Assembly: GCA_016744535.1 (NCBI GenBank)
Contig: JADGEE010000018.1
Span: 1-38,461 of the forward strand
Reading direction: 5' to 3'
DNA from: Campylobacteraceae bacterium
GTDB lineage: Bacteria; Campylobacterota; Campylobacteria; Campylobacterales; BB28
DNA: 38,461 bases
Shown piece after piece: positions 2,782 through 30,765 of the stretch (position 1 is the stretch's first letter; every line of letters begins with the position of its first letter). Under the pieces are notes generated by a model. It searched no databases and was not told the DNA's origin. It worked only from the letters and a program-made list of their open reading frames with translations. The position numbers were made by a program, and so were the translations under genes.

Positions 2782-2828
2782 ATTTTCTGATGAGGAATTT
2801 TAAAAAAATCTATTGAAAAGGAAATTTA

Positions 2829-3161
2829 TTGAAAACGGGAATATTTGTATTTGTACTAAGCCTTGCAAGTCTGTTATCGGCAAATGAGACATTTGACACA
2901 AAATGTTCAACCTGTCACGGTTTAAAAGGGGAAAAAGAGATTACTGGAAAAATTGGGCATACTAGAGCATTAGCTTCAATTGATAAAGAGGAGTTAGTTA
3001 CATTAATGACAGGCTATAAAGATGGAACTATTCACGAGGGTGAGGGACAACACGGTTTAGGTAAAATAATGAGAGGACAACTTAGACCATTAAGTAGTGC
3101 TGATATTGAAGATTTAGCTTTACATATTTTAAGTTTAAACAACAAAGCAGCAAAAAAGTAA
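2829..3161 (+). CDS. monohaem c-type cytochrome
   Basis: 110-aa exported electron carrier. Residues 1-18 are a signal peptide (cleavage likely after LLSA). The haem-attachment motif CSTCH lies at C26-H30. A Met-containing segment (KIMRGQL, about residue 80) is the likely second axial ligand, followed by the usual C-terminal helix (SADIEDLALHILSL). The start is TTG 2829, with AAAGG about 8 nt upstream and immediately before the signal peptide. Class I small soluble cytochrome, similar to the c553 type; its redox partner cannot be told from context. Confidence 0.87.
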   Translation: MKTGIFVFVLSLASLLSANETFDTKCSTCHGLKGEKEITGKIGHTRALASIDKEELVTLMTGYKDGTIHEGEGQHGLGKIMRGQLRPLSSADIEDLALHILSLNNKAAKK

Positions 3162-3176
3162 ATTAAACTTCTTTGC
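3150..3176. terminator. bidirectional hairpin between cytochrome c and pglE
   Basis: GCAAAAAAGT (3150-3159) pairs with ACTTCTTTGC (3167-3176) with one A/C mismatch; loop 7 nt. It lies between two convergent genes, overlaps the cytochrome stop codon and is flanked by T-rich sequence, as expected of a shared terminator. Confidence 0.55.
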
Positions 3177-3184
3177 TTTACTCT

Positions 3185-4309: not shown

Positions 4310-4325
4310 TTTTTTCCTTTCATTA

Positions 4326-5084: not shown

Positions 5085-5173
5085 TTTCAACCTTTTTATT
5101 AATTTATGTATTATATAATTATTACACAATTATTTAGTATAATAATTATATTTAAATCAAATAGGAGAATGGA

Positions 5174-5884: not shown

Positions 5885-5893
5885 TAAAAACTC

Positions 5894-7225: not shown

Positions 7226-7314
7226 AATTGATTTCCTAATTTTAAATAAATAGAAAATAAAAGACATTCATTATATAATAAATTTTTTATGAAATGATAT
7301 AGAAAAGGTTACAA

Positions 7315-8391
7315 GTGAATTTAATTTATGATTATCTTGATACCGAGTTAGAAGAGTCGATAAAACCAAAGTTTAGAGTTAAACAAATTTATAATTGGTT
7401 ATATAAAAAATATGTAAATAATTTTGATGAGATGAAAAATTTACCAAAAAACTTAAAAGAAGAGTTAAAAGATAAATTTGAAATTGATAATATTAAAATA
7501 GCAGATATTCAAGAGGCGAGTGATGGTACAAAAAAGTATCTATTTAAGTTATCTGATGGACATACAATTGAGACAGTTTTATTAAAAATGAAAGAGAAAG
7601 TTATTGATAAAGATGGTAAAGTTTTAAGTGGTGAAAAATTTACAGTTTGTATATCGAGTCAAGTTGGTTGTAAAGTTGGGTGTAGTTTCTGTTTTACTGC
7701 AAAAGGTGGATTTATTAGAAATCTAAGTGCTGGTGAAATTGTATATCAAATTTTAGCAATTAAAAGAGATAACAATATAGTTGAAAATAAAAGTGTAAAC
7801 ATCGTGTATATGGGAATGGGTGAGCCACTAGATAATTTCGATAATTTAGTCAAATCAATTAAAATTTTTACTAATTTAGATGGCTTAGCAATTGCCCCAA
7901 GACGCCAAACAATCTCTACAAGTGGATTAAGTTCTAAAATAGAAAAATTAGGAAAATTAAATTTAGGGGTAAATATTGCAATTAGTCTTCACGCTGTTGA
8001 TGATGAGTTAAGAGAAGAGTTAATCCCAATGAACAGAGCTTATAATATAAAATCAATTATAGATGCGATAAAAAAATATCCAATTGATGAGCGAAAGCGA
8101 GTAATGTTTGAGTATTTAATCATCAAAGATGTAAATGATGATTTAGCAAGTGCTAAAAAATTAGTAAAGCTTTTAAATGGAATAAAAGCAAAAGTAAATT
8201 TAATCTATTTTAACCCTCACGAAGGGAGTATTTATCAAAGACCAACTAATAAAAAAGTAAATGAATTTCAAGAATTTTTACATAATAGAGGCTTGTTATG
8301 TACAATTAGAGAATCAAAAGGGATTGACATAGACGCTGCTTGTGGACAACTTAGAGAAAAAGAATTAAAAGAAAAAAGACTTTTTACTTGA
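7315..8391 (+). CDS. rlmN: dual-specificity 23S rRNA/tRNA adenine-C2 methyltransferase RlmN
   Basis: Radical-SAM enzyme that methylates C2 of A2503 in 23S rRNA and A37 of several tRNAs. 358 aa. The [4Fe-4S] cluster cysteines are C119-x3-C123-x2-C126 (CKVGCSFC). The SAM-binding GEP motif is in [10 protein letters not shown], and the C-terminal cysteine that forms the methyl-cysteine intermediate lies in DAACGQLR. The start is GTG 7315, after AAAAGG. Divergent from the histidine kinase; followed by purH 54 nt on. Confidence 0.95.
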
Positions 8392-8445
8392 TAAGTTTTA
8401 AAGTAGAAATTACTTATAATAAATATAAAAATTTAAAGGAATTTA

Positions 8446-9978
8446 ATGAGAGCGTTAATAAGTGTAAGTGATAAGAGTGGGGTTATTTTGTTTGCAAAAG
8501 AGTTAGTAGATTTAGGATATGAGATAGTTTCAACTGGGGGAACTTTAAAAAAATTAAAAGAGAATGATATTAATGCAGTAGATATAAGTGAAGTGACAAA
8601 ATTCCCTGAAATGTTTGATGGAAGAGTTAAAACACTAAACCCAATGGTTCACGGTGGGATTTTATATAGAAGAGATAATAAAAGCGATGTAGAGACTGCA
8701 AAAGAGTACGGAATTATAGGAATTGATATAGTTGTTGTAAATTTATATCCATTTAAAGAGACAACTAAAAAAACCGACAATTTTGATGAAGTTATTGAAA
8801 ATATTGATATTGGAGGACCAACGCTTGTTCGAGCAAGTGCTAAAAATTATAAAGATGTAATTATTGCTACAAATCCAAATGATTATACAACTATAATAAA
8901 TACTATTAAGGACAATAAAAATACTATTGAATTTAGAAGAGATTTAATGATAAAAGCATTCGAGCATACAGCTAGTTATGACGCTTTTATTGCAAATTAT
9001 ATGAATAAAAAATTTAATAGTGGTATAGGTGAAAATCAATTTATCGTAGGTCAAAAAGTAATAGATACAAGATATGGTGAAAATCCTCATCAAAAAGGTA
9101 CTTTATATCAATTTGAAGATTTTTTTAGTAATAACTTTAAAACTCTCAAAGGCGAAGCTAGTTTTAATAATTTAACAGACATAAATGGAGCTATGAAAAT
9201 TGCTGGAAACTTTGGAAATAGAGAAGCTGTATGTATCTCAAAACACGGAAATCCTTGTGGATTTGCAATAAAAGATACTCTACTTGAAAGTTATGTAGAA
9301 GCTTTAAAATGCGATCCAATTTCAGCTTATGGTGGAGTTGTAGCAGTTAATGGAGTAGTAAATAGAGAGTTAGCACTTAAAATGAATGAGATATTTTTAG
9401 AAGTAATTATTGCAGGTGATTTTGACGAAGACGCGATAGAAGTTTTTAACTCAAAAAAGAGAATTAAATTATTTAGTCAAAATTCTAAAAAATTAGTTTT
9501 ATCAAATGACGAGATAGATTTTAAACATATTGATGGCGGATTTGTATTTCAAGATAGTGACAAAGTGGAAGATGATGAAGTTAAAAATTCAAAATTAATG
9601 AGTAAAAGAGAAGCCTCAAAAAGTGAATTACAAGATTTAGAAATAGCTTATAAAGTGGCTAGTTTAACTAAATCAAATTGTGTAGTTTATGTAAAAAATT
9701 CTGCAATGGTAGGAATTGGAATGGGAATGACAAGCAGAGTAGACGCTGCTAAATGTGCTATTAAAAAAGCTAAAGAGGTTGGATTAAGTATTGAAGGATC
9801 TGCACTAGCGAGTGAAGCATTTTTTCCATTTAGAGACTCTATTGATGCTGCGGCAACTGCTGGAGTTAAATCTATAATTGAACCAGGTGGAAGTATTAGA
9901 GATAAAGAGATAATAGAGGCAAGTGATGAAAATGAAATTGCTTTATATTTTAGTGGAAAAAGACACTTTTTACATTAG
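8446..9978 (+). CDS. purH: bifunctional AICAR transformylase / IMP cyclohydrolase PurH
   Basis: Catalyses the last two steps of IMP synthesis. 510 aa, normal length. The N-terminal MGS-like cyclohydrolase domain (about 1-145) has SDKSGV, STGGT and [15 protein letters not shown]; the C-terminal transformylase domain has [17 protein letters not shown], the [14 protein letters not shown] segment and the terminal [16 protein letters not shown] precedes ATG 8446. With purU upstream in the window, two one-carbon/purine genes occur in the same region but not the same operon. Confidence 0.96.
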
Positions 9979-10007
9979 TCTCTTTTTTTTCTTTAATTAA
10001 TAAAATT

Positions 10008-10202
10008 TTATTTTAACAATTTATTAACTTTTTTTATCTCCTCTTGTAATTCACTTAAAAGTATTCCAAGACCTATAATATCACCTTTTTGAAAGTGAAA
10101 TCTCTCATTATCCATATACAATAATGAACTTATTATAAAATCCATTTTATTGTAAATAGTGTTTAATTTATCACTAGCATTGTTTATATTTTCTGTTTTC
10201 AT
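10008..10202 (-). CDS. small hypothetical protein (64 aa)
   Basis: A 64-residue ORF on the minus strand with AAAGG about 7 nt before its ATG. The product is predicted mainly helical: an N-terminal polar stretch, then two amphipathic helices (about 12-30 and 45-64) ending in a Lys/Glu-rich heptad-like pattern (LLSELQEEIKKVNKLLK). No signal peptide or membrane segment. It lies between purH and the defence island, convergent with purH. No recognised family. Confidence 0.5.
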   Translation of the reverse strand: MKTENINNASDKLNTIYNKMDFIISSLLYMDNERFHFQKGDIIGLGILLSELQEEIKKVNKLLK

Positions 10203-10336
10203 TTTGTGCCTTTATTTTTTATAAATTATATATAATTAATTCTATGGAATCAATTCACAAATATTTTTCTAAAAATTTGAAAATAAAGAAAATATTTTGT
10301 TAAAATTAAAAAAAAAATTATGCAAAGTGGTTAAAA

Positions 10337-10924
10337 TTGAAAAATAATATAACTAAATTTTATGAAAAAAATTACAAAAATTTAATTAAAATGTATAATA
10401 ATGCCGATATTAAAATATTAAATAAACTTTTTGATGAATATATAAAAAAAAGTAACAAAGTTTTAGATATTGGATTTGGCAGTGGTAGAGATTTAAAATA
10501 TATTAAAAATTTAAGTGCAAAAGTTTTCGGAGTAGAAAGTTGTGAAGGCTTTATTGAAAATTTAGAAAAAGAAATTTATTTTAAAAATAGGGTATATTTT
10601 GCTACACTTCCAAATCTAAAATTAAATCTAAATTTTAAATTTGATGTAATTATCTCTATAGCTGTTTTTATGCACTTAAGTAAATCAGAAATTCAAGAAT
10701 CTATTAAAAATATAAAAAAATATTTAAAAAATGGTGGAGTAGTTATAATTAGTTATTCTATAGGTAAAAGAAAAAATGATGAAAGATTTTTTGAAAATTT
10801 AAGTATTGAATTTATGAGAGAGAGTTTTGAAAAGTTTGAGTTTAGAGAAGTTAAATTAATTAATAATAGTGACGCTTTGAGCAGAGAGATTGAGTGGGTA
10901 AGCCAAGTATTTAAATTAATGTGA
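10337..10924 (+). CDS. class I SAM-dependent methyltransferase
   Basis: 195 aa with a Rossmann methyltransferase core: motif I VLDIGFGSGRDL (residues 42-53), an acidic residue ending the next strand (VFGVES, about 60), motif IV region FDVIISIAVFMHL, and post-motif YLKNGGVVIISYS. This pattern fits small-molecule or protein methyltransferases (Methyltransf_11/tellurite-resistance type), not base-modifying DNA enzymes, which carry NPPY/DPPY. The start is TTG 10337, with only a weak AGTGG upstream. It lies 59 nt before the DUF262 gene; whether it belongs to the phosphorothioation system is unclear. Substrate unknown. Confidence 0.75.
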   Translation: MKNNITKFYEKNYKNLIKMYNNADIKILNKLFDEYIKKSNKVLDIGFGSGRDLKYIKNLSAKVFGVESCEGFIENLEKEIYFKNRVYFATLPNLKLNLNFKFDVIISIAVFMHLSKSEIQESIKNIKKYLKNGGVVIISYSIGKRKNDERFFENLSIEFMRESFEKFEFREVKLINNSDALSREIEWVSQVFKLM

Positions 10925-10937
10925 ATTGAATTTTAAA

Positions 10938-10943
10938 TATAAT
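10938..10943 (+). promoter_or_regulatory. -10 element for the phosphorothioation/restriction operon
   Basis: TATAAT 40 nt upstream of ATG 10984, followed by AAAGG at about 10971-10975. It is the best promoter candidate for the long run of genes to 19620, in which later intergenic gaps are 11 nt or less. Prediction only; AT-rich sequence gives chance matches. Confidence 0.4.
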
Positions 10944-10983
10944 GTTTTTTTATAAATTTAAAATGATATAAAGGTTTTTTATT

Positions 10984-12837
10984 ATGTCTAATTTTAGTTC
11001 AAATTTGCTTAGTATAAGTATGTTACTTAAAAATGAATATGATGATGTAGATAAGGGGAAGACATACTCTATACCACATTATCAAAGAAGATATGTTTGG
11101 AATGATGAAAATGTTGAAAAATTAGTAGAAGATTTAGTAGAAAGTTTAAATGATGATAAAGAATATTTTATAGGAGGTATTGTATTATCAAGAGAGACAA
11201 TAGAAAATAATAAAACAGATTGTTTAGAAGTAATTGATGGACAACAAAGACTTACTACTTTAGCAATTTTAACAGCAACGATAGTATATGTTTTAGAATT
11301 AAATGAGAATAACTATAAAAATGATTTATTAGAATATAGGAAACAAAAAGCTAAAGAATTATCAGAATTAATTATTTTTAAAAAAACTACAAAAGATAGA
11401 AAAGTAATAGAAAAAGTAAAAATAGAAAGAATGGATTCTTTAAATGAGTTATTTGTTCAAATATTAAAAATATTAATAAACTTTGAATGGAAAAATGAAA
11501 AAGATAAATTAAATAAATTTACCAATATACAAGAAGAATATAAAAATAAATTAATTTCAATTACAAAAAAACTTATTGATAAAGTAAAACAGATTGATAG
11601 TACTGATAGTGACCATCTTATAAATTTCATAGACCATTTATTTGATAAAACTAAAATTGTTGTTACAAAAACAAATGATATTGATACAGGATTTTTAGTA
11701 TTTGAAAAATTAAATGATAGTGGAATCGCATTAGAACCCGAAGATTTACTAAAAAATTATATATTTAAAAATTCTAATGAAACTGAATATAAACAAATAT
11801 CAGAAAAATGGGAAATATTTTTAAATATTGTATCTGAAATAAATATTAAATCTAAGATTAAACCTAGAGAGTTTCTTGAAAACTATATAGTAATTAATGG
11901 GATAGATATAAAAAATAAAAGCATCTTTTATAATTTAAAAAAATTAAAGACAGAAAATTTTAATTTATCTATGGAACTTCTTGATGATTTAATTACTATA
12001 GCAACAAAATATAAAGAGTTAAGAAATAATAGTTTTATTTCAAAATATTTAAATGCTATGAATTTTAAATTAGGTTATATAATTATTTTAGCTACATATA
12101 AAGTTTTAGGTGAACAAATTTATGAAAAGAATATAAAAGAAATTTTAGCCATTGTTGTAAGATTTGGGCTAACTTTTATTTTAACTGGAAATCCTAGAGG
12201 AATAAGTCAAGAAGTTCCAAAATTATCTAAATTACTAACAGAAGACAAATTATTAGATGAAAATAAAATTTTAGATAGATTTAAAAATAAAATCAATGAA
12301 TTAATTCATAATAAAAAACAGGAATTTTATCAAAGTATAGTAAACAATGACTTTTATAATAAACATAAAAAAATAACGAAATTTTTGTTTAGTATTTTAA
12401 ATTATCATTTAGATGGTACAAAAATAGGTATAAATACTTTAACAATAGAACATTTAATGTCACAAAATCCAAATAAAAACTGTACATACTCTAGTATAAA
12501 TAATGATAATATACAACTTTATACTAATAAAATAGGTAACTTGACAGTAATACACCAGTCTGGTAATTCTAGCTGTGGAAATAAGTGTTTTCACGAAAAA
12601 GTAAAATGTTTATTAGAAAATCAAAATATTTATATTACAAGGTCTATAAAAGAAAATCAAAATAATAAAACAAGAAAAACAAAATTTAATAATTTTCAAT
12701 CAAAATATGATTTTAAACCTTTAAATGATAATTCTGTTTGGGGAAAAGAGTATATTGAGAATAGAAGTGAATCTTTAGCTAAATTAGCTGAATATGTTGT
12801 TATAGAGAAGAATATGCTTATTAATTATTTTGAATAA
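10984..12837 (+). CDS. DUF262/DUF1524 (GmrSD/SspE-like) restriction effector
   Basis: 617 aa. The N-terminal DUF262 (ParB-like NTPase) domain shows IPHYQRRYVW (about residues 33-42), FIGGIVL, and the signature D85-G-Q-Q-R89 in VIDGQQRLTTL; the domain continues with FEKLNDSGIALEPEDLLKNY. The C-terminal DUF1524 domain carries the HNH-type nuclease pattern: H490 in IEHLMSQNP, G518-N-L in KIGNLTVI and a final GNKCFHEK. GmrSD and BrxU cut modified DNA, and SspE of the Ssp phosphorothioation system has this same DUF262-DUF1524 layout and senses phosphorothioate. Here it sits 11 nt before dndC, so a role as the phosphorothioate-dependent effector is inferred. Other modified-base targets are possible. 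Confidence 0.85.
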   Translation: MSNFSSNLLSISMLLKNEYDDVDKGKTYSIPHYQRRYVWNDENVEKLVEDLVESLNDDKEYFIGGIVLSRETIENNKTDCLEVIDGQQRLTTLAILTATIVYVLELNENNYKNDLLEYRKQKAKELSELIIFKKTTKDRKVIEKVKIERMDSLNELFVQILKILINFEWKNEKDKLNKFTNIQEEYKNKLISITKKLIDKVKQIDSTDSDHLINFIDHLFDKTKIVVTKTNDIDTGFLVFEKLNDSGIALEPEDLLKNYIFKNSNETEYKQISEKWEIFLNIVSEINIKSKIKPREFLENYIVINGIDIKNKSIFYNLKKLKTENFNLSMELLDDLITIATKYKELRNNSFISKYLNAMNFKLGYIIILATYKVLGEQIYEKNIKEILAIVVRFGLTFILTGNPRGISQEVPKLSKLLTEDKLLDENKILDRFKNKINELIHNKKQEFYQSIVNNDFYNKHKKITKFLFSILNYHLDGTKIGINTLTIEHLMSQNPNKNCTYSSINNDNIQLYTNKIGNLTVIHQSGNSSCGNKCFHEKVKCLLENQNIYITRSIKENQNNKTRKTKFNNFQSKYDFKPLNDNSVWGKEYIENRSESLAKLAEYVVIEKNMLINYFE

Positions 12838-12848
12838 AAAAGGTATTT

Positions 12849-14135
12849 ATGAATAAATCACAACAAACAAAACAATTAATTAAAAATCACTACTTAGCAG
12901 ACTCTCGTCCATTAGTAGTGACTTTTAGTGGTGGAAAAGATAGCACAACAGTTTTACAGCTTACAATGGAAGTTTTACAAGAGTTAAAAAAAGAGAATAA
13001 AATAATAAAAGATACTTATATTGTCTCTTCTGATACTTTGGTGGAAATGCCAATTATTGAAGAGTATTTAAACAATACTCTAAATAAAATTAATCAATAT
13101 TGTAAACAAGAGAATTTAAGAGTTACAACACATTTAATTAAACCAAAAGAGGAAGATTCTTTCTTTACTTTAATGATAGGTAGAGGTTATCCTGCTCCAA
13201 ATAAGTGGTTTAGATGGTGTACTGATAGATTAAAAATTAAACCTACTACGGATTTTTTAAGTCAATTAGTAGATAAACATCAATCTATATTAATGCTACT
13301 TGGCGTTAGAATTGATGAGTCTATTAGTCGTGCTATCTCTATTAAAAGTAGAGATTTAAATTATAAGGGTTTATCACCTCACGACCAAATTCCTAACGCT
13401 TATGTTTTATCTCCCATAAAAGATTGGAGTAATGCAGAGGTTTGGACATTTTTAACTGAATGTGAAACTCTTTGGGGAAATCATAAATTAATGATGAGTC
13501 TATATGATAAAGGAAGTAGTGAGGCTGATTGTAATATCGCGTTAAATCCAGAGTCGCCTAGTTGTGGAAAAACTCGTTTTGGTTGTTGGACTTGTACTGT
13601 TGTCGATAAAGATAAATCTATGGATGGAATGATTAAAAGTGGTGAAGAGTGGATGTTACCTCTGTGGGATTATAGAGAGAAGTTATTAAAATATAGAAAT
13701 AGAGAAGATAAACGAAATAGTAGACGAAAAAACTCACAAAGAGGTTTAGGAGATTTCACACTCGCTACTAGAGAAGAGTTATTAGAAGATATTTTTATAA
13801 TAGAAAAAATGAGTGAATTTAAAAATAGAGATATAGAATTAATTTCAGATATAGAGTTAGAGTTAATTCAAAAGAATTGGGATAGAGATGGTGATATAGA
13901 AAATTCAGCTCTAAAGTTAGCTAAAAAATATAAAAGATTAAAAAATAAATCTGTTGAAAATAGTGAAATAGAGAATATTTTAAGTGAGTTAAATATTGAT
14001 TTTTCAAAAGAGTTATTTAAGAGAATCTATGAGATAGAAGTAAATAGAAAAAACTTATCAAATAGAGTTGGAATACTTCAAGATATAGAGAGTAGAGTTA
14101 AAAATTATTCTAAGGGATTATTTATTGAGAATTAA
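12849..14135 (+). CDS. dndC: DndC, PP-loop ATP pyrophosphatase / sulfurtransferase of DNA phosphorothioation
   Basis: 428 aa, PAPS-reductase-like. PP-loop SGGKDS at residues 27-32 binds and hydrolyses ATP to activate the DNA phosphate. C124 lies in WFRWCTDRLK. Four cysteines, C228, C239, C246 and C249 (the last three in SCGKTRFGCWTC), are placed to bind the [4Fe-4S] cluster known in DndC. The C-terminal third is charged and helical. DndC takes sulfur from a cysteine desulfurase (DndA or IscS); none is encoded here. AAAGG precedes ATG 12849, and the stop overlaps dndD by 11 nt. SspD of the Ssp system is related, but the dndD/dndE neighbours favour Dnd. Confidence 0.9.
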   Translation: MNKSQQTKQLIKNHYLADSRPLVVTFSGGKDSTTVLQLTMEVLQELKKENKIIKDTYIVSSDTLVEMPIIEEYLNNTLNKINQYCKQENLRVTTHLIKPKEEDSFFTLMIGRGYPAPNKWFRWCTDRLKIKPTTDFLSQLVDKHQSILMLLGVRIDESISRAISIKSRDLNYKGLSPHDQIPNAYVLSPIKDWSNAEVWTFLTECETLWGNHKLMMSLYDKGSSEADCNIALNPESPSCGKTRFGCWTCTVVDKDKSMDGMIKSGEEWMLPLWDYREKLLKYRNREDKRNSRRKNSQRGLGDFTLATREELLEDIFIIEKMSEFKNRDIELISDIELELIQKNWDRDGDIENSALKLAKKYKRLKNKSVENSEIENILSELNIDFSKELFKRIYEIEVNRKNLSNRVGILQDIESRVKNYSKGLFIEN

Positions 14136-15867
14136 AGAGTTATTGTTAAAAGATATATTTTCATATTATGGTATACATAGTATAAAATTTGATAAATTTA
14201 CTTTTATAATTGGTGAAAATGGGTTTGGAAAAACTGCTATTTTAAATAGTATAAAATTAGCTTTAGGTAAAAAAGATATCGATAAAAACTCTATTTTAAA
14301 TAGTGAAAGTAGTGAAAAAAATTGTTATATAGAGGTAGATTTTGAAGAGTTTAAAATCAAAAGAGAGTGGGATTTTAAAGAGAATATTGAGAGAGTAGAG
14401 ATTAAATTAGAAGATGAGGTTTTAGAGGATTTTGAAGCAGAAGAGTTTATAAAAGAGAAATTTCCATTAGAGATAATTGATTTTATATTTTTTGATGGTG
14501 AAGTGGAAAAAAATTTAATAATTTCAAAAAAATCTCATCTGAAAAAACTCTTTGAGCATATTTTTGATTTAGATATATTTGCAAATATGAAAAGTGATTG
14601 TTTAAGAGTTGCAAAAAAATTATTAAAAGATATAGAGAGTATTGAACTTCAAGAGTTTCAAGGCTTGGAATCTAAAAGCGAAACTATTTTAAAAGAGATA
14701 GAAAGCTTAAAGTTAAAAATAGAAAACGATAATTTAGAATTAAAAAAATTAAATTTAGAGTTAAAAAATTTAGAGTTAAAGGTAAAAACTCATAGTAAAG
14801 CTATTGCAAATTTAAAAGAGAAATTAAATATTAAAAATGAAGAGTTAGAGGAGTATTTAAAAAAATTTAGAGAGATAAATCTTTATCAAATGCCTCTTAT
14901 TTTAAATAATATGTTGCTAAAAAATATAGAGAATAAAAATATTAATTTTATAGAGATAAAAAGTGAAAATGAATTTAAAAACAAGTTTACATCATTTTAT
15001 GAAATGATTAAAACTGATATGAGTGAAGAGGAGCTTTTAAGAGAGTTTTATAATATATTTGCTAATTCTATTTTAGATTTAAATTTAAAATACTCAAAAG
15101 ATGATTTTAAAGATATTTTAGAAAATATCAAAAGAGTTAATATAGAAATTGAAAATATTGAAGAAAAATTAAAAAATGTTAGAAAAAAATCTACTGATGA
15201 GATATTAAATGAGTTAGAAAAAACTCAAACAGAAAAGTTAAAAAATAGAGAAATTTTAGAGTTTAATTTAATAGATAGTGAAAAAAAATTAGAAACTTTA
15301 AATTTAGAAAATAAAGAAGTAGAAGCTAAACTTAGAATTGAATTTATAAATAAGAGAGAAAAATTTGCAAATATTAAGAGTTATGAAGAGTTATTTAATA
15401 TCTCAAAAGGTGCAGATAAAATTTATATTTTAAAGTTAAAACAGAATTTAGAGGATTTTAATAAAATATTTGCAATTAATTTAAAACCATTTTTAGCAAA
15501 ATATCATCATATAAGCAAAATATTTTTAAATGAAGATTTTAATATTATTTTACTTGATAAAAAAGAGAGTACATTGAATCTATCACTTATTTCAGCTGGA
15601 CAAAAACAGATACTTAGCTTTTTAATTATAAATAGTGTATTAGAGTTTAAAAATTTTAGTGATTTTATGCTTATAGATACACCATTTGGAAGGCTCTCAA
15701 ATGAAAACAGAGATTTTATATTAAATGATTCATATATGAAATTTGAAAATTTAACCCTACTTATGACAAGTAGTGAATTTGACTATATTAAAACAAAAAA
15801 TTTAAATTTTAAAGAATATCATTTAGCAAAAAATATGTTTGGTACAGAGGTGAAGTATGGCAGTTAA
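14125..15867 (+). CDS. dndD: DndD, SMC-like ATPase of DNA phosphorothioation
   Basis: 580 aa from TTG 14125, with AAGGGA 7 nt upstream. Walker A is GENGFGKT (residues 30-37); the ABC-type signature is S490-A-G-Q (ISAGQKQILSFL); Walker B is FMLIDTPFG around D518. Between them, about residues 170-420, is a long Leu/Lys/Glu coiled coil, so the protein has head-coil-head SMC/Rad50 architecture. No CxxC zinc hook is seen in the coil. In the family it provides ATPase activity thought to alter or nick DNA structure during sulfur incorporation. Somewhat shorter than the roughly 660 aa of typical DndD, mostly in the coil. Overlaps both neighbours by 11 nt. Confidence 0.88.
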   Translation: MRIKELLLKDIFSYYGIHSIKFDKFTFIIGENGFGKTAILNSIKLALGKKDIDKNSILNSESSEKNCYIEVDFEEFKIKREWDFKENIERVEIKLEDEVLEDFEAEEFIKEKFPLEIIDFIFFDGEVEKNLIISKKSHLKKLFEHIFDLDIFANMKSDCLRVAKKLLKDIESIELQEFQGLESKSETILKEIESLKLKIENDNLELKKLNLELKNLELKVKTHSKAIANLKEKLNIKNEELEEYLKKFREINLYQMPLILNNMLLKNIENKNINFIEIKSENEFKNKFTSFYEMIKTDMSEEELLREFYNIFANSILDLNLKYSKDDFKDILENIKRVNIEIENIEEKLKNVRKKSTDEILNELEKTQTEKLKNREILEFNLIDSEKKLETLNLENKEVEAKLRIEFINKREKFANIKSYEELFNISKGADKIYILKLKQNLEDFNKIFAINLKPFLAKYHHISKIFLNEDFNIILLDKKESTLNLSLISAGQKQILSFLIINSVLEFKNFSDFMLIDTPFGRLSNENRDFILNDSYMKFENLTLLMTSSEFDYIKTKNLNFKEYHLAKNMFGTEVKYGS

Positions 15868-16249
15868 AACAACACAAGAGATAGAGAGTTATATAACTCC
15901 TCTTTTTAAACTTTTAAAATTAAATCCAAAAGAACCAAAATGGATAGGACTTAGATTTATGATAAATATTTCACTATCCATTAAACATAAAAAATTTCAA
16001 ATTGAATTAAATAGTGATTTTAATGGGAGTGAATATCAACTTAAACAATTAACAGGTGAGCATAAAGAAAATGAAAATTTTACAAACTACTATCATAAAA
16101 TGATAGAATCTTATGATGAGATGGAGTTAAAAACTGTTAGAGAGTTTGAAAAAAGATTAGAGTATCATATCCAAAGAGGATACGAAATATTAAATAAATC
16201 ACAAACTAAAAAATTTAATATTTATGAATTTATGCTTCAAGAGTTTTAA
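15857..16249 (+). CDS. dndE: DndE-like phosphorothioation protein (DUF1832)
   Basis: 130 aa, the size of DndE. It overlaps the dndD stop by 11 nt. It is basic and mainly helical, with the RFMINISLS segment (about 35-43), a central LKQLTGEH and a C-terminal helix ending RLEYHIQRGYEIL; this layout matches DUF1832/DndE, whose tetramer binds nicked DNA. Similarity to the E. coli protein by eye is weak, so the call rests on order (C-D-E), size and the LTGE/HxxRG features. A different small DNA-binding partner is the alternative. Confidence 0.72.
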   Translation: MAVKTTQEIESYITPLFKLLKLNPKEPKWIGLRFMINISLSIKHKKFQIELNSDFNGSEYQLKQLTGEHKENENFTNYYHKMIESYDEMELKTVREFEKRLEYHIQRGYEILNKSQTKKFNIYEFMLQEF

Positions 16250-16252
16250 AAA

Positions 16253-17164
16253 ATGACAGCTATAAAAAATAAAAATATAAAATCACCTTTAAACTATATA
16301 GGTGGAAAACATAAATTATTAAATCAAATTACACCATTATTTCCAATAAAAATCAATACATTCGTTGATTTATTTGCAGGTGGTTGTAATGTGGGCATTA
16401 ATATAGAAGCTAATAGAATAATATTTAATGATAATTTAATATATTTAATTGAAATGTTTCAAATATTTCAAAGTAATAGTGTTAAAAATACTGTTAATCA
16501 TATTGAAAATAGAATAAAAGAGTTTGAGTTATCAAAAACAAATGAACAAGGATATAAAAAATTTCGTGATTTTTATAATCAAACTAAAATTAAATTAGAT
16601 TTATTTGTATTAATTGCTTATTCTTTTAATTATCAAATTAGATTTAATAATAGTCATAAATTTAATACTCCATTTGGACGAAATAGAAGTAGTTTTAATG
16701 ATACTATGAAACATAATTTAATAAATTTTATTATGAAATTAAAAGAAAAAGAGAGTGAATTTTTAACCTTTAGTTTTGAAAATTTTGATTTTTCAATATT
16801 AAGTAAAGATGATTTTGTTTATTGTGACCCTCCATATTTAATTACAACAGGTTCTTATAATGATGGGAAAAGAGGTTTTAAAGGTTGGAGTGAAAACGAA
16901 GAATTTAAATTATTAGATATTTTAGATAATTTAGATAATAAGAATATAAAATTTGCACTTTCAAATGTTATACAACATAAAGGTAAAGAAAATTTAATAT
17001 TAAAAAATTGGTTAAAAAAACAAAATTATAAAATAAATTTTTTAGATAAAAACTATTCAAATTCAAATTATCAAACAAAAATAAGAGATAAGAATGCAAG
17101 TATTGAAGTTCTTATTACAAATTATACTCCAAATACTAAAAAAAGAGAAAAACATTATGTTTAA
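16253..17164 (+). CDS. D12-class (Dam-type) DNA adenine-N6 methyltransferase, M1
   Basis: 303 aa. Alpha-type amino-methyltransferase layout: motif X NYIGGKHKLL (about residues 14-23), motif I VDLFAGGCNVG (about 39-49), a target-recognition region in the middle (with TPFGRNRSSFN), and catalytic motif IV CDPPY (about 193-197). Resembles the N-terminal half of FokI-type bifunctional methyltransferases and DpnII/Dam relatives. Starts 3 nt after the dndE stop, so likely co-transcribed with the phosphorothioation genes, and overlaps the putative endonuclease by 8 nt. Methylates adenine on one strand of an unknown, probably asymmetric, site. Confidence 0.9.
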   Translation: MTAIKNKNIKSPLNYIGGKHKLLNQITPLFPIKINTFVDLFAGGCNVGINIEANRIIFNDNLIYLIEMFQIFQSNSVKNTVNHIENRIKEFELSKTNEQGYKKFRDFYNQTKIKLDLFVLIAYSFNYQIRFNNSHKFNTPFGRNRSSFNDTMKHNLINFIMKLKEKESEFLTFSFENFDFSILSKDDFVYCDPPYLITTGSYNDGKRGFKGWSENEEFKLLDILDNLDNKNIKFALSNVIQHKGKENLILKNWLKKQNYKINFLDKNYSNSNYQTKIRDKNASIEVLITNYTPNTKKREKHYV

Positions 17165-18548
17165 AAACTTATGGATTTTAACAGAAGAAAGACCAAAAAA
17201 AGAGGTTATAGAAGTAATTTTTAACAAATATTTAACAGATAATAAAATTGCAAGTTTCATTGATAATATTAGAATAATACCAATTTTAAATAAAGATGAG
17301 TTTTCTTTTACTTATGAAATAACAGGAATTAAAACACCTAAAATTTTAAATATTTATTTGAAAATAATAAGTGGAACATCTAGCTTTGTAGATTATTTAG
17401 TTTTTGAAAGTATTAATGAGCCAAACCAAAATGATATACCAATATATGCAATTGAAGAGACTAAAACTGATGACAAAGAGAGTAGAAATACAGGAGTATA
17501 TCAACGGTGTTCTAAATTTGTATATGTAGATTTTTTCTATCCAAACATATCGAAAATAATGTTATATAATTTACAAATAGAGCAAAAAAAAGAAGCAACA
17601 TTAACATATATTTTTGGTACAAAAATGTTAAAGACATTAGGTGTTGAAATTTTGGGTAAAAAAGGAATTAATAATGAAAAATATAATGCTTTTAAAACAA
17701 TTGATGAGTTAATAGATTTAAAAAATAGTATGCCTAAAACTAGAAATGGTGTTACAGTTAGACTAACAAAAAAAAATAATTCTATTGAAATAAGTGCACG
17801 ATTAGAGAAAAGTGGTAAATTAGGAAGTGACCCAAGTATAGGAATGACTACAATTATTTCAAATTGTCTTAGAAAGTTGGGTTGGAACAAAGATATTATC
17901 ATTACGCAACATAATTTACCGAACCAACAAAGTGTAGGTAAAAATAATAAATTTATTCAAATTGCAAATAAATTAAATATAAAACTTGAAAATTTAAATA
18001 TACCAATAGCTAAACCCAAAAATCAATATTGGTATTATGAAATTAATGGTGAAAAAATTAGTACAATTTTTTTAGATATTGTAGTAGATGAATTTTCTCA
18101 AGGTTTTACAATATATCACAATCACGCTGGTTGTGAAAGAGGATATTTTTTAACAAAAGATGGTAAAAAATTAACAATTGAAAAATATACTGATAGAGAT
18201 AAATATAAGGGTGGAGATAAAACTCAAATTATTAATCTTCCTGATTTAGTATTAATAGATAATTCTGAAGATTTAATTATCAATATTGAAGGAGAAATGT
18301 ATAAAAATGCAAAAGCAGGAATTAAACAATTAGAGGGCTTTGACGCTTTTGAAAAACATTATATAACAAAATACTATCCTAAGTTTGAAATAAATCGTAC
18401 AGTTGTTTTGTATGGTAGTGAAGATAATAACAGACCTATTGGGAAAATTAGTTTTATTTTAAATACTCAAGGTAAAATATTAATTAGCTTAACAGCACCT
18501 AAATTATTTCAAAAATCATTTGATAATATTTTTGATTATTGGAACTAA
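17157..18548 (+). CDS. putative type II restriction endonuclease (unrecognised)
   Basis: 463 aa from ATG 17157, which overlaps the M1 stop by 8 nt; in-frame ATG 17094 lies inside M1 and would add 21 residues derived from its coding sequence. I do not recognise the family. A PD-(D/E)xK-like arrangement is visible: D79 in SFVDYLVFES, then E101-T-K103 in YAIEETKTDD, 22 residues later. The context, between two adenine methyltransferases with almost no gaps, is the main reason for the call. It lacks helicase or Walker motifs, so types I and III are excluded. The C-terminal region (DIVVDEFSQGF, GCERGYFLT, PDLVLIDN, INIEGEMY) contains further acidic candidates that could equally form the active site. 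Confidence 0.7.
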   Translation: MFKNLWILTEERPKKEVIEVIFNKYLTDNKIASFIDNIRIIPILNKDEFSFTYEITGIKTPKILNIYLKIISGTSSFVDYLVFESINEPNQNDIPIYAIEETKTDDKESRNTGVYQRCSKFVYVDFFYPNISKIMLYNLQIEQKKEATLTYIFGTKMLKTLGVEILGKKGINNEKYNAFKTIDELIDLKNSMPKTRNGVTVRLTKKNNSIEISARLEKSGKLGSDPSIGMTTIISNCLRKLGWNKDIIITQHNLPNQQSVGKNNKFIQIANKLNIKLENLNIPIAKPKNQYWYYEINGEKISTIFLDIVVDEFSQGFTIYHNHAGCERGYFLTKDGKKLTIEKYTDRDKYKGGDKTQIINLPDLVLIDNSEDLIINIEGEMYKNAKAGIKQLEGFDAFEKHYITKYYPKFEINRTVVLYGSEDNNRPIGKISFILNTQGKILISLTAPKLFQKSFDNIFDYWN

Positions 18549-18549
18549 T

Positions 18550-19620
18550 TTGAGATTTATAGGTAATAAAGAAAGATTAGTTGATTGGATATATTCAACA
18601 ATAAAATCTAACAATATTAACGGGGAAATCTTTTTTGATTTTTTTTCTGGAACATCAAATGTTGGTAAATTTTTTAAAGAAAAAAATTATCAAATAGTAT
18701 CATCTGATTTATTATATTTTAGCTATGTATTACAAAGAGCATATTTAGTAAATAATGAAACTCCTCAATTTCAAAAACTAATATCAAATATAAAAATTAA
18801 ATCAAATTTATTAATAGCAAATAATTATGAATTAATAATAGAGTTTTTAAATCAATTAGCATTAATAGATGGATTTATTTATAATAATTATGCTCCTAGT
18901 GGTACAAAACAGTTATTACAACCTAGAATGTACTTTATAGATGATAATGCCAAAAAAATAGATGCTATTCGTATAAAAATAGAAGAGTGGAAAATAAATA
19001 AATTAATAGATGATAATGAATATTTTATATTATTAGCTTGTTTAATTGAAAGTGTTCCATTTTTTGCAAATATTTTAGGTGTATTTGCTGCTTTTAAAAA
19101 AGGTTGGGATAAAAGAGCATTAAAACCTTTCTTATTAAAACCAATTAAGATATATAAAAATACTAAAAATCATTTTGTTTTTAATACTTCTAGTTTAGAA
19201 TTATTGCAAAAATTTAAATATGACATAATATATCTTGACCCACCATACAATCAAAGACAATATGCACCAAATTATCATTTGTTAGAAACTATTGCAAAAT
19301 ATGATAATCCTGAAATTAAAGGTATTACAGGAATGAGAAATTATGATAATCAAAAATCAAATTTTTGCAATAAAGAAAAAGCATTAAATGATTTAGAATT
19401 AATTCTTAAATCTAATAATTATAAATATATTTTATTAAGTTATAACAATGAAGGAATAATGCCTAAAGAAGATATTTTACAAATTATGCAAAGATATGGA
19501 AGTGTAAAAATTGAGGAATATAATTATTTGAGATTTAAAAGTAACAATAATGGTAAAAATAAAAATAAAAAATTTATAACAGAGTTATTATATATATTAA
19601 AAAACAAAACACATAATTAA
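18550..19620 (+). CDS. D12-class DNA adenine-N6 methyltransferase, M2 (FokI-like)
   Basis: 356 aa from TTG 18550, one nucleotide after the endonuclease stop; this start gives the family N-terminus MRFIGNKERLVDWI. ATG 18520 would overlap by 29 nt and add ten residues. Motif X is FIGNKERL, motif I FFDFFSGTSNVGKFF, and catalytic motif IV LDPPYNQRQYAPNYHLLE, typical of the COG3392/FokI-C-terminal group. M1 and M2 are only distantly alike, so each probably methylates one strand of a non-palindromic site. No gene follows before gyrA, making this the end of the island. Confidence 0.9.
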   Translation: MRFIGNKERLVDWIYSTIKSNNINGEIFFDFFSGTSNVGKFFKEKNYQIVSSDLLYFSYVLQRAYLVNNETPQFQKLISNIKIKSNLLIANNYELIIEFLNQLALIDGFIYNNYAPSGTKQLLQPRMYFIDDNAKKIDAIRIKIEEWKINKLIDDNEYFILLACLIESVPFFANILGVFAAFKKGWDKRALKPFLLKPIKIYKNTKNHFVFNTSSLELLQKFKYDIIYLDPPYNQRQYAPNYHLLETIAKYDNPEIKGITGMRNYDNQKSNFCNKEKALNDLELILKSNNYKYILLSYNNEGIMPKEDILQIMQRYGSVKIEEYNYLRFKSNNNGKNKNKKFITELLYILKNKTHN

Positions 19621-26988: not shown

Positions 26989-28191
26989 ATGAAAAAAGCT
27001 TTACTTTTTATAATTTTCAGCACACACTTAATAGCAGATATAAGTAGTGAGGTTAAGTTAAAAGAATCTGTAATTCAACATAGAGTTGTAGTAAATGAAA
27101 TAACTATGGATAAAAAGGTTAATTTAACAAATTCTAATGGTGGAACTATATTGAGTAAATTTTATTTAGAAGCTAATGATGGGGTAACAATAACAGTGAA
27201 ACCAAATTTAGATAATAGTAGTGACTATACAAAAATAAAATTATACAAGGAGGGTTATACAAAAACATATTTAAAAAATGAAGGCTCTTATGGTGATTTA
27301 ACTACACTTAATTACAAAGCAAAATCTAATGGCTATTATTATCTAAGTTTAGATAGTAGTTCAGGTAGCTATAATGTTGGAATATATAGTGCATTTTTTA
27401 ATATAGGTATTTCCAATTCTATAAATAGTTATAACCATAGTTCATACACTGCAAAAAAAATAATCAGTGGCAAATTTACGATAAATAAAGATATGTCAAA
27501 TTGGTATTATTTTAAAAATAGTACAAAAAATAATCATTATTTAAATTTAATACCTTATTTGAATGATGATTATTTATCAATTACATTATTTAAGCGAAAT
27601 AGTAAAGATAATTATTCTGATGATATGAAAAGTGTTAGTCTTTATACGAATGAAAGTGTAAATATTGCTAATCTAATAAATACAGATGGAACATATTTAT
27701 TAAATATAAGAAGTAGTTCCGATGGATATTATGAATTAGAAACAAATGATATTTTTAATACAGTAGTTGATACAGTAGTTGATACAGTAGTTGATACAGT
27801 AGTTGATACAGTAGTTGATTTAAATATAATAAAGTCTAATTCATTAGAGTTAAGACCAAAGTGGAATTTAGTTTCAATTCCAGGTTACAATAATTATGAA
27901 GCAGATAAGTTATTTAGCATTATTTTAAATAAAGATACAAATATGTCAAAAAAGAATGCAATATCTAAAGTTTTTTCATATAATATTGTGACACAAGAAT
28001 GGAATGAATACACTCCAGGAAATCAAGATAATGATAGATTTATTATTACTCCTCAAATGGGATTATGGATATATAATGAATTTAATTTTACTTATAAATT
28101 TGATATTAGTGTTAATGGAAATGAAAATTTTACTTATAAAGAAGGTTTAGTTAAAGATAATTTAAATCTTCCATTTCCAACACCATTTTAA
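26989..28191 (+). CDS. secreted protein with two PPC-like beta domains, VVDT repeat and WNLVSIPGY domain
   Basis: 400 aa from ATG 26989, which has AAAGG upstream and starts a signal peptide (MKKALLFIIFSTHLIA). Two beta-rich segments (about residues 30-130 and 145-250) each end in a Gly-Tyr-Tyr pattern (SNGYYYLSLDSSSGSYNVGIY; TDGTYLLNIRSSSDGYYELE), resembling bacterial pre-peptidase C-terminal domains. A linker of five DTVV-type tetrapeptides follows, then a C-terminal domain from about 290 with WNLVSIPGY, W..YTPG and MGLWIY. That domain also occurs in the next gene, 27 nt on. Periplasmic or surface protein; function unknown. Confidence 0.7.
   Translation: MKKALLFIIFSTHLIADISSEVKLKESVIQHRVVVNEITMDKKVNLTNSNGGTILSKFYLEANDGVTITVKPNLDNSSDYTKIKLYKEGYTKTYLKNEGSYGDLTTLNYKAKSNGYYYLSLDSSSGSYNVGIYSAFFNIGISNSINSYNHSSYTAKKIISGKFTINKDMSNWYYFKNSTKNNHYLNLIPYLNDDYLSITLFKRNSKDNYSDDMKSVSLYTNESVNIANLINTDGTYLLNIRSSSDGYYELETNDIFNTVVDTVVDTVVDTVVDTVVDLNIIKSNSLELRPKWNLVSIPGYNNYEADKLFSIILNKDTNMSKKNAISKVFSYNIVTQEWNEYTPGNQDNDRFIITPQMGLWIYNEFNFTYKFDISVNGNENFTYKEGLVKDNLNLPFPTPF
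27760..27819 (+). repeat. five perfect 12-bp tandem repeats (acagtagttgat)
   Basis: Unit acagtagttgat repeated five times without a mismatch inside the secreted-protein gene. It encodes a TVVD run joining the beta domains to the C-terminal domain. Twelve bases keep frame, so copy number can vary without inactivating the gene. Confidence 0.97.
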
Positions 28192-28218
28192 ATTTCAATA
28201 AAATAAAAAGGAGATTTT

Positions 28219-28737
28219 ATGAAAAAAGTTTTAAGTTTAGCTACGGCTATAAGTTTGTTTGGAAGTTCTTTATTATTAGGAGATACTAGTAATTATCCTC
28301 CTTCAATTCCTTTGGGTATTAATGTAGACATACAAATTGGAGTTTCATTTACTGGTACTGGTACTTCTACGACAATGACATTGGGTTTAACACCTGGTTG
28401 GAATTTAGTTTCAATTCCAGGATATTCTCGTTATTCATTAGATGATATGTTTGGTGTAGATATTACAAATAGTAGTAAAATGGCTATGGTTTCATTTGTA
28501 AATTCTGTTTGGGTATTTGATGTAAATTTAGGTAAGTGGCATACTTATATTCCTGGAGATAGGAATGATTATTTTAGAAGTTTAAAACCTGGTGAGGGGA
28601 TTTGGGTAGATGCTAAATATAATGCTTCATATGAATTTACTGCAACAACAGTTGGTGAAGAAAAAGTGAGATATAAAGATGAAGGTGGAAGTGGTATTAT
28701 TATGGATAATGTTCCTCCTATGCCTTGGGATAATTAA
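28219..28737 (+). CDS. secreted small protein with WNLVSIPGY domain
   Basis: 172 aa. Signal peptide at residues 1-20 (MKKVLSLATAISLFGSSLLL), AAGGAG before ATG. Residues 58-142 match the C-terminal domain of the preceding gene: GWNLVSIPGY, a W/Y pair with PG (KWHTYIPGD), LKPGEGIWV and SYEF. It thus consists of little more than that domain plus a Gly/Thr-rich linker. The two genes are 27 nt apart and likely co-transcribed. I know no function for the domain. Confidence 0.7.
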   Translation: MKKVLSLATAISLFGSSLLLGDTSNYPPSIPLGINVDIQIGVSFTGTGTSTTMTLGLTPGWNLVSIPGYSRYSLDDMFGVDITNSSKMAMVSFVNSVWVFDVNLGKWHTYIPGDRNDYFRSLKPGEGIWVDAKYNASYEFTATTVGEEKVRYKDEGGSGIIMDNVPPMPWDN

Positions 28738-28926: not shown

Positions 28927-29823
28927 ATGAGATTTGTAGACCCAAAAAATGATATTGCATTTAAAAAAATATTTGGAGATGAGAATCACACAGAGATATT
29001 AATATCATTTTTAAATGCTATTTTAGATTTTAAAGATGATAATAAAATAAAAAATGTAAAAATTTTAAATCCATATCAAGCACCAAAAATAGAAGAATTA
29101 AAAGAGACAATATTAGATATTAAAGCTATGAATGAGAAAAATGAGACATTTATAGTTGAAATGCAGAGAAAAGATTTAAATAATTTTCAAAAAAGAAGTT
29201 TATATTATACTTCAAAAGCTTATATTCAACAATTAGATAAGAAAAAAGATTATTCTACATTAAAAAAAGTCTATTTTATTGGAATAGTAAATTTTAAAAT
29301 ATTTGCAAGTAAACACTATTTAAGTAAACATTTAATCATTAATCAAGAAAATAATAAACAAGAATTAGATAATTTTGAATTTACATTTATAGAATTACCT
29401 AAGTTTAAAATTAATAAAAATGAAATAGACAAATTAAATACTATTACTGAAAAATGGATATGGTTTTTAAAACATACTCAAAAACTTGATTTAATACCTA
29501 AAGAATTTGAAAATATAAAAGAGTTTAAAGAGGCTTTTTTAATAGCAACTCAATATAAATGGAGTCAAAAAGATATAGAAATTTATGAGTATATGACTTT
29601 AAAAGAGTATGATGAAATTAATGCAATAGAGACATCATTTGGTAAAGGATTAAAGCAAGGTTTAGAACAAGGTTTAGAACAAGGTTTAGAACAAGGAGAG
29701 AAAAATAAGCAGTTAGAGATTGCTAAAACTCTTATATCATTAGGTGATGATATTAATAAAATATCTAAAGTAACAGGCTTAAATAAGTTAGAAATAGAAA
29801 CTTTAATAAAAAATTTTATCTAA
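28927..29823 (+). CDS. Rpn/PDDEXK_2-family nuclease (putative transposase family), copy 1
   Basis: 298 aa. Opens with MRFVDPKNDIAFKKIFGDEN, the N-terminal signature of the TIGR01784/PDDEXK_2 family, related to E. coli Rpn recombination-promoting nucleases. Putative catalytic residues are D64 (ILDIKA) and E78-x-Q80 (FIVEMQRK). The C-terminal part has three GLEQ repeats and a short helix-turn-helix-like end (INKISKVTGLNKLEIETLI). Despite the family label, no terminal inverted repeats were seen. The second copy begins 45 nt downstream. Confidence 0.88.
   Translation: MRFVDPKNDIAFKKIFGDENHTEILISFLNAILDFKDDNKIKNVKILNPYQAPKIEELKETILDIKAMNEKNETFIVEMQRKDLNNFQKRSLYYTSKAYIQQLDKKKDYSTLKKVYFIGIVNFKIFASKHYLSKHLIINQENNKQELDNFEFTFIELPKFKINKNEIDKLNTITEKWIWFLKHTQKLDLIPKEFENIKEFKEAFLIATQYKWSQKDIEIYEYMTLKEYDEINAIETSFGKGLKQGLEQGLEQGLEQGEKNKQLEIAKTLISLGDDINKISKVTGLNKLEIETLIKNFI
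29656..29691 (+). repeat. three 12-bp repeats (caaggtttagaa) in Rpn copy 1
   Basis: Perfect triplicate of caaggtttagaa encoding QGLE units, ahead of a partial fourth. The same array is present in copy 2 at 30598-30633. Confidence 0.95.
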
Positions 29824-29868: not shown

Positions 29869-30765
29869 ATGAGATTTGTAGACCCAAAAAATGATATTGC
29901 ATTTAAAAAAATATTTGGAGATGAGAATCACACAGAGATATTAATATCATTTTTAAATGCTATTTTAGATTTTAAAGATGATAATAAAATAAAAAATGTA
30001 AAAATTTTAAATCCATATCAAGCACCAAAAATAGAAGAATTAAAAGAGACAATATTAGATATTAAAGCTATGAATGAGAAAAATGAGACATTTATAGTTG
30101 AAATGCAGAGAAAAGATTTAAATAATTTTCAAAAAAGAAGTTTATATTATACTTCAAAAGCTTATATTCAACAATTAGATAAGAAAAAAGATTATTCTAC
30201 ATTAAAAAAAGTCTATTTTATTGGAATAGTAAATTTTAAAATATTTGCAAGTAAACACTATTTAAGTAAACATTTAATCATTAATCAAGAAAATAATAAA
30301 CAAGAATTAGATAATTTTGAATTTACATTTATAGAATTACCTAAGTTTAAAATTAATAAAAATGAAATAGACAAATTAAATACTATTACTGAAAAATGGA
30401 TATGGTTTTTAAAACATACTCAAAAACTTGATTTAATACCTAAAGAATTTGAAAATATAAAAGAGTTTAAAGAGGCTTTTTTAATAGCAACTCAATATAA
30501 ATGGAGTCAAAAAGATATAGAAATTTATGAGTATATGACTTTAAAAGAGTATGATGAAATTAATGCAATAGAGACATCATTTGGTAAAGGATTAAAGCAA
30601 GGTTTAGAACAAGGTTTAGAACAAGGTTTAGAACAAGGAGAGAAAAATAAGCAGTTAGAGATTGCTAAAACTCTTATATCATTAGGTGATGATATTAATA
30701 AAATATCTAAAGTAACAGGCTTAAATAAGTTAGAAATAGAAACTTTAATAAAAAATTCAATCTAA
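29869..30765 (+). CDS. Rpn/PDDEXK_2-family nuclease, copy 2
   Basis: 298 aa, identical to copy 1 except the penultimate residue (S for F). The upstream ribosome site differs slightly (GAGGATAA versus AGGATAA), as does the 3' flank. It ends 19 nt before the gltA start codon, so gltA may be read from the same transcript. The identical bodies with different flanks suggest gene conversion or a recent duplication with edge divergence. Confidence 0.88.
   Translation: MRFVDPKNDIAFKKIFGDENHTEILISFLNAILDFKDDNKIKNVKILNPYQAPKIEELKETILDIKAMNEKNETFIVEMQRKDLNNFQKRSLYYTSKAYIQQLDKKKDYSTLKKVYFIGIVNFKIFASKHYLSKHLIINQENNKQELDNFEFTFIELPKFKINKNEIDKLNTITEKWIWFLKHTQKLDLIPKEFENIKEFKEAFLIATQYKWSQKDIEIYEYMTLKEYDEINAIETSFGKGLKQGLEQGLEQGLEQGEKNKQLEIAKTLISLGDDINKISKVTGLNKLEIETLIKNSI
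30598..30633 (+). repeat. three 12-bp repeats (caaggtttagaa) in Rpn copy 2
   Basis: Same QGLE-encoding array as in copy 1, with the same copy number. Confidence 0.95.

Follow-up and report, generated by a model that had tools for sequence, protein, structure and literature searches.

We found that P1 and P2, the products of two adjacent genes in a 38,461-nucleotide contig of a Campylobacterales genome (the window), share a segment of ~90 residues whose likeness is far beyond chance. The segment recurs throughout the genome, where 99 such modules were counted in 59 proteins (3.0 Mb, 40 fetched regions read). P1 and P2 are best read as minor members of this family, each holding a lone half, here called S, of what would be a mainly beta, extracellular two-lobe domain, which we term the GWNL domain. 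The explanation that we favour, with roughly even confidence, is that this domain mediates surface attachment or docking without covalent bonds.

P1 and P2 share one half-module

A sequence-only reading of the window had described WNLVSIPGY, a W..Y.PG motif and a G.W segment in the same order in both genes. All three are present in that order, the latter two as WNEYTPG and GLW in P1 and as WHTYIPG and GIW in P2. The genes lie on the same strand, 27 nt apart, with AGGAG shortly 5' of each ATG. In a BLASTP comparison of P1 288-397 with P2 57-169, 35 of 114 positions were identical and 66 of 114 positive (E 2e-20). The features are as follows (positions in the window).

26989..28191, + strand: P1, 400 aa counted from the ATG; signal-peptide-like start, N-terminal region of ~240 residues, one S-type half-module near the C-terminus
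27037..27753, + strand: P1 residues 17-255, distantly PPC-like, common to the genome-mate L099 (BLASTP E 2e-18)
27758..27819, + strand: perfect 12-bp repeat, 5.2 copies, in frame, encoding a (TVVD)n linker ahead of the P1 module
27838..28104, + strand: module of P1, a lone S half scoring 31.7 bits with the S and 15.4 with the G profile
27862..27888, + strand: WNLVSIPGY in P1, residues 292-300
28219..28737, + strand: P2, 172 aa; little beyond signal peptide and module
28297..28311, + strand: PPSIP motif in P2, residues 27-31, directly after the likely signal peptide
28378..28638, + strand: module of P2, a lone S half scoring 47.6 bits with the S and 26.0 with the G profile
28399..28425, + strand: WNLVSIPGY in P2, residues 61-69

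Both N-termini show Lys followed by a hydrophobic stretch, as is typical of signal peptides, and both pass a crude hydrophobicity rule. This makes the earlier description of the two proteins as secreted plausible and suggests export. The smaller protein was rightly characterized as almost only the shared domain. The two PPC-like domains proposed for the front of P1 fared less well: P1 17-255 aligns to residues 467-700 of L099, in which residues 619-686 score 20.9 bits against PPC (PF04151; cut-off 25.9), so that a distant PPC likeness is weakly supported, but the P1 region itself gave no Pfam match at E ≤ 1 and no convincing internal repeat by BLASTP (best E 0.033). The TVVD repeat is likely a length-variable linker. 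Judging from their sequences, P1 and P2 are probably co-transcribed, exported proteins with lone S halves; each contains a single module, and neither a complete S+G unit nor a trace of a second module was found. A promoter scan returned 19 sites compared to 20.2 in shuffled sequence.

The sequence-only reading had further suggested a secreted pair with a common binding module. The common module stands, and binding may be its role, but P1 and P2 as a private two-gene system were ruled out, because the module is present in 59 proteins of the genome. P2 is also nearer to L105 (E 1e-32) and L106 (4e-32), which are encoded elsewhere in the genome, than to P1 (3e-18). For P1, the similarities to L105, L106, and P2 are roughly the same. 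No P1-like neighbour of L106 or L108 was present in the regions read, and the upstream side of L105 was masked. When 39 relatives and the own genome were searched with P2, the sister genome G001 gave no match, and the only relatives that did were G007 and G019, via the module. P1 likewise found no match in G001 among 10 genomes searched, of which G007 alone matched, again via the module. Since G001 is 88% complete, loss of P1 and P2 there is unproven.

The pair is flanked by genes that we take to be amtB/glnK on one side and by two near-identical 298-aa ORFs on the other. The latter are arranged in tandem (28927-29823 and 29869-30765), have translations identical except near the last residues, and are presumably Rpn/PD-(D/E)XK transposase-family proteins. 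The window also contains a cluster at 10984-19620 that we assume to be a DNA phosphorothioation (DndCDE-like) set, presumably comprising a DUF262-like protein (617 aa), a PAPS-reductase-like protein (428 aa), an SMC-like protein (580 aa), a protein of 130 aa, and DNA methylases.

The module is mostly placed at the ends of diverse proteins, most with signal-peptide-like starts

With the P2 segment as query, five further copies, P1 included, were found in the genome at E ≤ 1.1e-4, and a profile built from 16 copies (A2) gave 97 matches at E ≤ 0.1. In 36 of the 59 proteins, the C-terminus is reached at most 5 residues after the last module, compared to a mean of 1.56 and a maximum of 7 in 2000 random placements, and most of these C-terminal copies finish in ..GFWIK(K) or near that. 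In 11 proteins the first module begins within 35 residues of the N-terminus; 12 belong to neither group, 4 of which end in a degenerate G half. A signal-peptide-like start was assigned to 50 of the 59 module proteins but to only 89 of 314 other ORFs by the crude hydrophobicity rule.

The remainder of these proteins is diverse. Among the families listed (best 25 of 52), we found Big_9, FG-GAP, PKD, RCC1, subtilase, PA14, laminin-G, Lcl_C, PrcB_C, and Lipoprotein_15, and the cargo further includes DUF1800 and Ig/cadherin-like domains. The carbohydrate-related domains Cthe_2159, Laminin_G_3, and PA14 occur in one member each among the families listed. No Pfam or NCBIfam family matches more than 4 of the 59 proteins (best 25 of 52 and 42 families).

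S and G halves alternate and are predicted to form a compact unit

The module occurs in two forms, which were assigned by the residue after GWNLx, S/A/T in the S half and G in the G half. Their consensus sequences are GWNLIS.P...W.y...W...G.GfW (S) and GW.L.G...iW.f...W...I..G.GFWIK (G), in which Trp residues are invariant, and a single hhalign comparison showed that the two are homologous (probability 99.2%, E 3e-19). Neighbouring copies alternate between S and G in 39 of 40 pairs of the own genome and in 48 of 50 pairs of the named loci introduced below (2 unassigned); as the typing residue was picked after viewing the own-genome copies and ~20 named proteins belong to a single group of propeller orthologues, the fairer test is provided by the fetched parts of an Ignavibacteria genome (G425), with 23 of 23 pairs, and of an archaeon (G426), with 6 of 7.

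Two-module proteins of the own genome with a C-terminal pair carry S (or A)-G in 21 of 28 cases and the reverse in 7, and the four N-terminal pairs are split 2 and 2. At the other named loci, C-terminal pairs are S-G in 12 of 14 cases (2 unassigned) and N-terminal pairs G-S in 21 of 22, nearly all of the propeller family. Lone modules at chain ends are of the G type in 13 of 14 cases, the exception being L093, an ORF of 68 aa close to the end of a contig. Among the lone G halves, seven at the N-terminus (L086, L101 with two, L102, L103, L107, and L116) have two Cys each at similar positions, which probably form a disulfide; two or more Cys are present in 7 of 23 lone modules compared to 2 of 76 tandem ones. 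By profile score, P1, P2, and L108 carry lone S halves. L105 (G 43.9 versus S 36.0 bits) and L106 (G 44.6 versus S 36.5 bits) lean towards G, so the designation as lone S is not valid for all of the group to which P2 belongs.

Some module genes are themselves arranged in recurrent neighbourhoods. Four gene pairs (L112:1180-5755, L113:2501-5971, L114:5827-8850, and L117:1450-6122) encode a protein with an S and a degenerate G half, followed by a protein of ~500 aa with a C-terminal S-G pair. At L115, two adjoining giants of 1619 and 2330 aa (2622-7478 and 7514-14503) end in a near-identical four-module C-terminus, S-G-S-G.

AlphaFold predicted the tandem unit as a compact structure of beta strands and one four-residue helix (pLDDT 95.4, pTM 0.87). 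Structure prediction, which had been proposed as a check, gave a mainly beta model of moderate confidence for P2 (pLDDT 68.3, pTM 0.64), in which the module consists of beta strands and one short helix, with pLDDT blocks of 73-88 and one loop at 50. Comparison of the tandem model with PDB structures yielded nothing above Z 2.5, a value obtained with a chain that is not a cupin (rmsd 3.3 over 62 residues), and the P2 model gave weak cupin-like matches (best Z 4.2 over 87 residues, rmsd 3.9). A predicted viral protein, A0A8D9C8P8, resembles the tandem model (E 6.4e-5, probability 1.00, TMq 0.66, rmsd 4.9). Relatives at the sequence level were not found in phages by tblastn, and a scan of viral contigs gave 8 pattern matches, none of which was confirmed.

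The module matches no described family in the libraries searched

The domain had been called undescribed-looking, a designation that would have fallen with a match to a well-described family. It holds for the libraries searched: sequence searches against Pfam, NCBIfam, PHROGs, and the PDB returned weak and inconsistent matches only, and for P1 and P2 all matches in Pfam and NCBIfam stayed below the cut-offs. The sole recurrent Pfam match, DUF1737 (PF08410), was obtained for 17 of 41 tandem units (best E 0.0011) and for neither P1 nor P2 at E ≤ 10. No NCBIfam model matched more than one of the 41 tandem units, and a 41-row tandem profile found no PDB sequence at E ≤ 10. With a profile of 5 rows, a Kelch chain of the PDB was reached at E 0.0017, but no individual stretch passed. 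Kelch_3 reached E 0.13 with P2 (13 versus 22 bits) and a propeller lectin 16.3 versus 200 bits with one tandem unit; the profiles thus do not place the module among Kelch or beta-propeller repeats. Among the papers listed by our literature searches, we found no description of the GWNL motif. As far as these searches reach, neither the GWNL family nor its rule of two halves nor the neighbouring lipoprotein (see below) has been described; anchoring modules as a kind are already known.

The distribution is patchy, with local bursts

Searches of other genomes extended the family to distant bacteria and archaea. Among 60 Campylobacterales genomes including our own, 14 were positive at E ≤ 0.001, which corresponds to 13 of 59 relatives: the sole other member of the genus has 41 copies, six have 12-32, and the rest 1-8. 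In an even sample of the phylum, at least 11 of 396 other genomes were positive at E ≤ 1e-6 (12 of 397 with the own genome counted), a lower bound because the survey scored no more than 14 candidates for each genome. A single S-half pattern, run against named genomes, recovered 48 loci, mostly in Campylobacterota (Sulfurovum, Sulfurospirillum, Thiovulum, and cave MAGs); the others are from archaea (Methanomethylicota and Methanogenium) and from Dehalococcoidia, Deltaproteobacteria, Lentisphaerae, Bacteroidota, Ignavibacteria, Cloacimonadota, and Patescibacteria. A scan of genome contigs with P2 alone gave 23 pattern matches, none confirmed. Thiovulum was rejected as the host of the window: the T. 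stygium locus is found in G038 (L057 equals L165 along 3219 nt), and G038 belongs to a different family.

Whole-genome counts in 12 of the named record genomes ranged from 1 to 65, with 65 in an Ignavibacteria genome, 55 in a Bacteroidota genome, followed by 34, 28, and 20 (an archaeon), and with the single copy in a Dehalococcoidia genome. Around the Ignavibacteria genome, 15 of 61 genomes, itself included, matched at E ≤ 1e-5, and the 14 others hold 1-3 copies. These uneven counts indicate a patchy distribution with local bursts. In the fetched parts, no more than 12 residues separate the last module from the C-terminus in 7 of 8 proteins from the Methanomethylicota archaeon, in 8 of 23 from the Ignavibacteria genome, and in 10 of 16 from the sister genome, where 5 more are N-terminal.

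A PPxIP motif accompanies the module in a subset of Campylobacterota

The motif PPx[IV]P, which directly follows the likely signal peptide of P2, occurs 7 times in 40,384 aa of module proteins compared to a single occurrence in the 138,237 aa of the remaining ORFs of these regions, many of them spurious. Its carriers are five of the 59 module proteins (P2, L105, L106, L108, and L109), and 54 are without it. In the whole genome, the PPQIP pattern was found at 4 places, all in module proteins, with 2 in the reversed control.

The motif also ends a tiny lipoprotein. We examined 20 Campylobacterota genes with an N-terminal module pair, all of which are propeller homologues, 37-53% to the one from T. 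stygium (L165, itself among the 20); PF09826 was tested for L165 and for L119 of the own genome, and the other 19 examined are L165 homologues. At 17 of the 20 loci, all orthologues of one gene pair and not independent events, the propeller gene is followed by a gene for a lipoprotein of 42-62 aa with PPx[IV]P plus 2-4 residues at its end (for example L159:8097-8249, with 16 further loci alike); the two genes overlap by up to 4 nt or lie up to 10 nt apart. The fetched loci, 1,425,238 bases in all, contain 24 frames with a C-terminal PPx[IV]P, namely those 17 and 7 that are not lipoprotein-like. The lipoprotein is missing at the propeller loci of two Thiovulum species and of the sister genome and was not found at the propeller of the own genome, nor in the fetched sister-genome, archaeal, and Ignavibacteria regions.

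The tiny lipoprotein could bind the propeller instead of the module. PF09826 was found in 3 of 200 Campylobacterota genomes, the own included, and all 3 also have the module, so that a propeller control free of the module is absent from this sample. Since PPxIP also accompanies the module in P2, L105, and L106, which are too short for a propeller, the module appears the likelier partner of the motif. That PPxIP is a ligand of the module is perhaps the case, a tentative proposal argued from association. The motif is not confined to such contexts: G007 has a tiny PPSIP lipoprotein with no module gene in its 13-kb contig, and in-frame PPxIP in 20 stretches picked from pattern matches lay in a mixture of exported and housekeeping proteins. 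It was also seen in cytoplasmic- or membrane-looking proteins unrelated to modules, and L281 (G052:C7), which we take to be a SecG-like protein, has two PPAIPVS repeats in its tail. At the nucleotide level, the PPxIP pattern was counted 35 times in the own genome compared to 16 in the reversed control, and the other genomes of the seven scanned were hardly above theirs (G007, 26 versus 21).

Attachment or docking as the favoured function

The placement of the module at the ends of unrelated, putatively exported cargo, its many copies, the presence of a separate type IX secretion (T9SS) signal in some carriers, and its occurrence in archaea argue for attachment or docking rather than export. 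The GWNL module, located at the extreme C-terminus or just after the signal peptide, would dock to a partner and thereby retain unrelated exported proteins at the surface of the cell or within the matrix. For some Campylobacterota, this partner might be the tiny lipoprotein, whose C-terminal PPxIP tip the module would hold. P2, which combines PPSIP and module in one chain, may be a small adaptor or a self-associating surface protein.

A different ligand is conceivable. As a carbohydrate-binding module (CBM), the domain would tie exported proteins to exopolysaccharide, stalk or sheath, and PPxIP would be an unrelated feature of linkers. CBMs commonly have invariant Trp residues, come in tandem, and are attached to diverse cargo; all three features are found here, and some of the cargo is carbohydrate-related (Cthe_2159, Laminin_G_3, and PA14). 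We nevertheless regard this as unlikely: the coupled PPx[IV]P lipoprotein speaks for a protein as ligand, as does the motif in module proteins of the P2 type, and no CBM family is among the matches listed for the module.

Less probable still, the terminal pair could be a secretion or sorting signal for a dedicated export machine, similar to the C-terminal domain of T9SS cargo. The diversity of the cargo and the 36 of 59 copies flush with the C-terminus, with their common ending, would fit such a signal, but not the 11 N-terminal placements, the presence of the module in archaea and Dehalococcoidia, or the copies in P1 and P2, which are unpaired and do not coincide with a chain end. Moreover, among 12 scanned proteins from outside Campylobacterota, 4 carry a separate T9SS domain (PF18962, above cut-off) downstream of the module, which is thus not the same thing as the T9SS signal. 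Equally doubtful is a ligand-free structural cap, a stable beta unit shielding the chain ends of exported repeat proteins; terminal location, the compact predicted fold and the Cys enrichment of lone modules, suggestive of selection for stability, agree with it, but a cap needs neither a P2 that is little beyond the module nor coupled lipoprotein genes nor internal copies upstream of T9SS domains.

Within the favoured docking function, a bolder extension is that S and G halves are complementary partners: lone-S receptors (P1, P2, and L108) would complete lone G ends in trans, and PPxIP lipoproteins or P2-like adaptors would tether the assembly. We consider this improbable. If true, it would amount to a self-sorting surface-assembly system of bacteria and archaea.

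Irrespective of the partner, S/G alternation offers a simple recognition rule for the GWNL domain, and the module, once named, would provide an annotation for the termini of many exported proteins now labelled "hypothetical". The coupled tiny lipoprotein provides a ready test of protein fixation at the surface of sulfur-cycle Campylobacterota.

Comparison with known systems

PPC (PF04151) concerns only the N-terminal region of P1, through its distant relation to the PPC-like region of L099; it is not the shared module, and the match is below cut-off. Trans-docking of lone S and lone G halves would follow a logic like that of cohesin and dockerin but with unrelated sequence, the module having no cohesin or dockerin match. 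As an analogy only, WW, GYF, and SH3 domains are likewise aromatic-rich small beta modules found beside or fused to proline motifs, although they are not among the Pfam matches of P1 and P2 at E ≤ 10.

The T9SS C-terminal sorting domain (PF18962) is similar in being a C-terminal beta domain on diverse exported cargo. It differs in that the GWNL module is also N-terminal (11 N-terminal and 12 other placements beside the 36 C-terminal ones) and occurs outside T9SS phyla too, and PF18962 matched neither P1 and P2 (E ≤ 10) nor the 41 tandem units (E ≤ 1). SLH domains are tandem domains for the non-covalent anchoring of proteins to the cell wall. SLH is not among the Pfam matches of the module, and the GWNL domain is a predicted two-lobe beta unit in Gram-negatives and archaea, but the two share the general plan of a short tandem module that is attached to either end of unrelated secreted proteins and present in many copies per genome.
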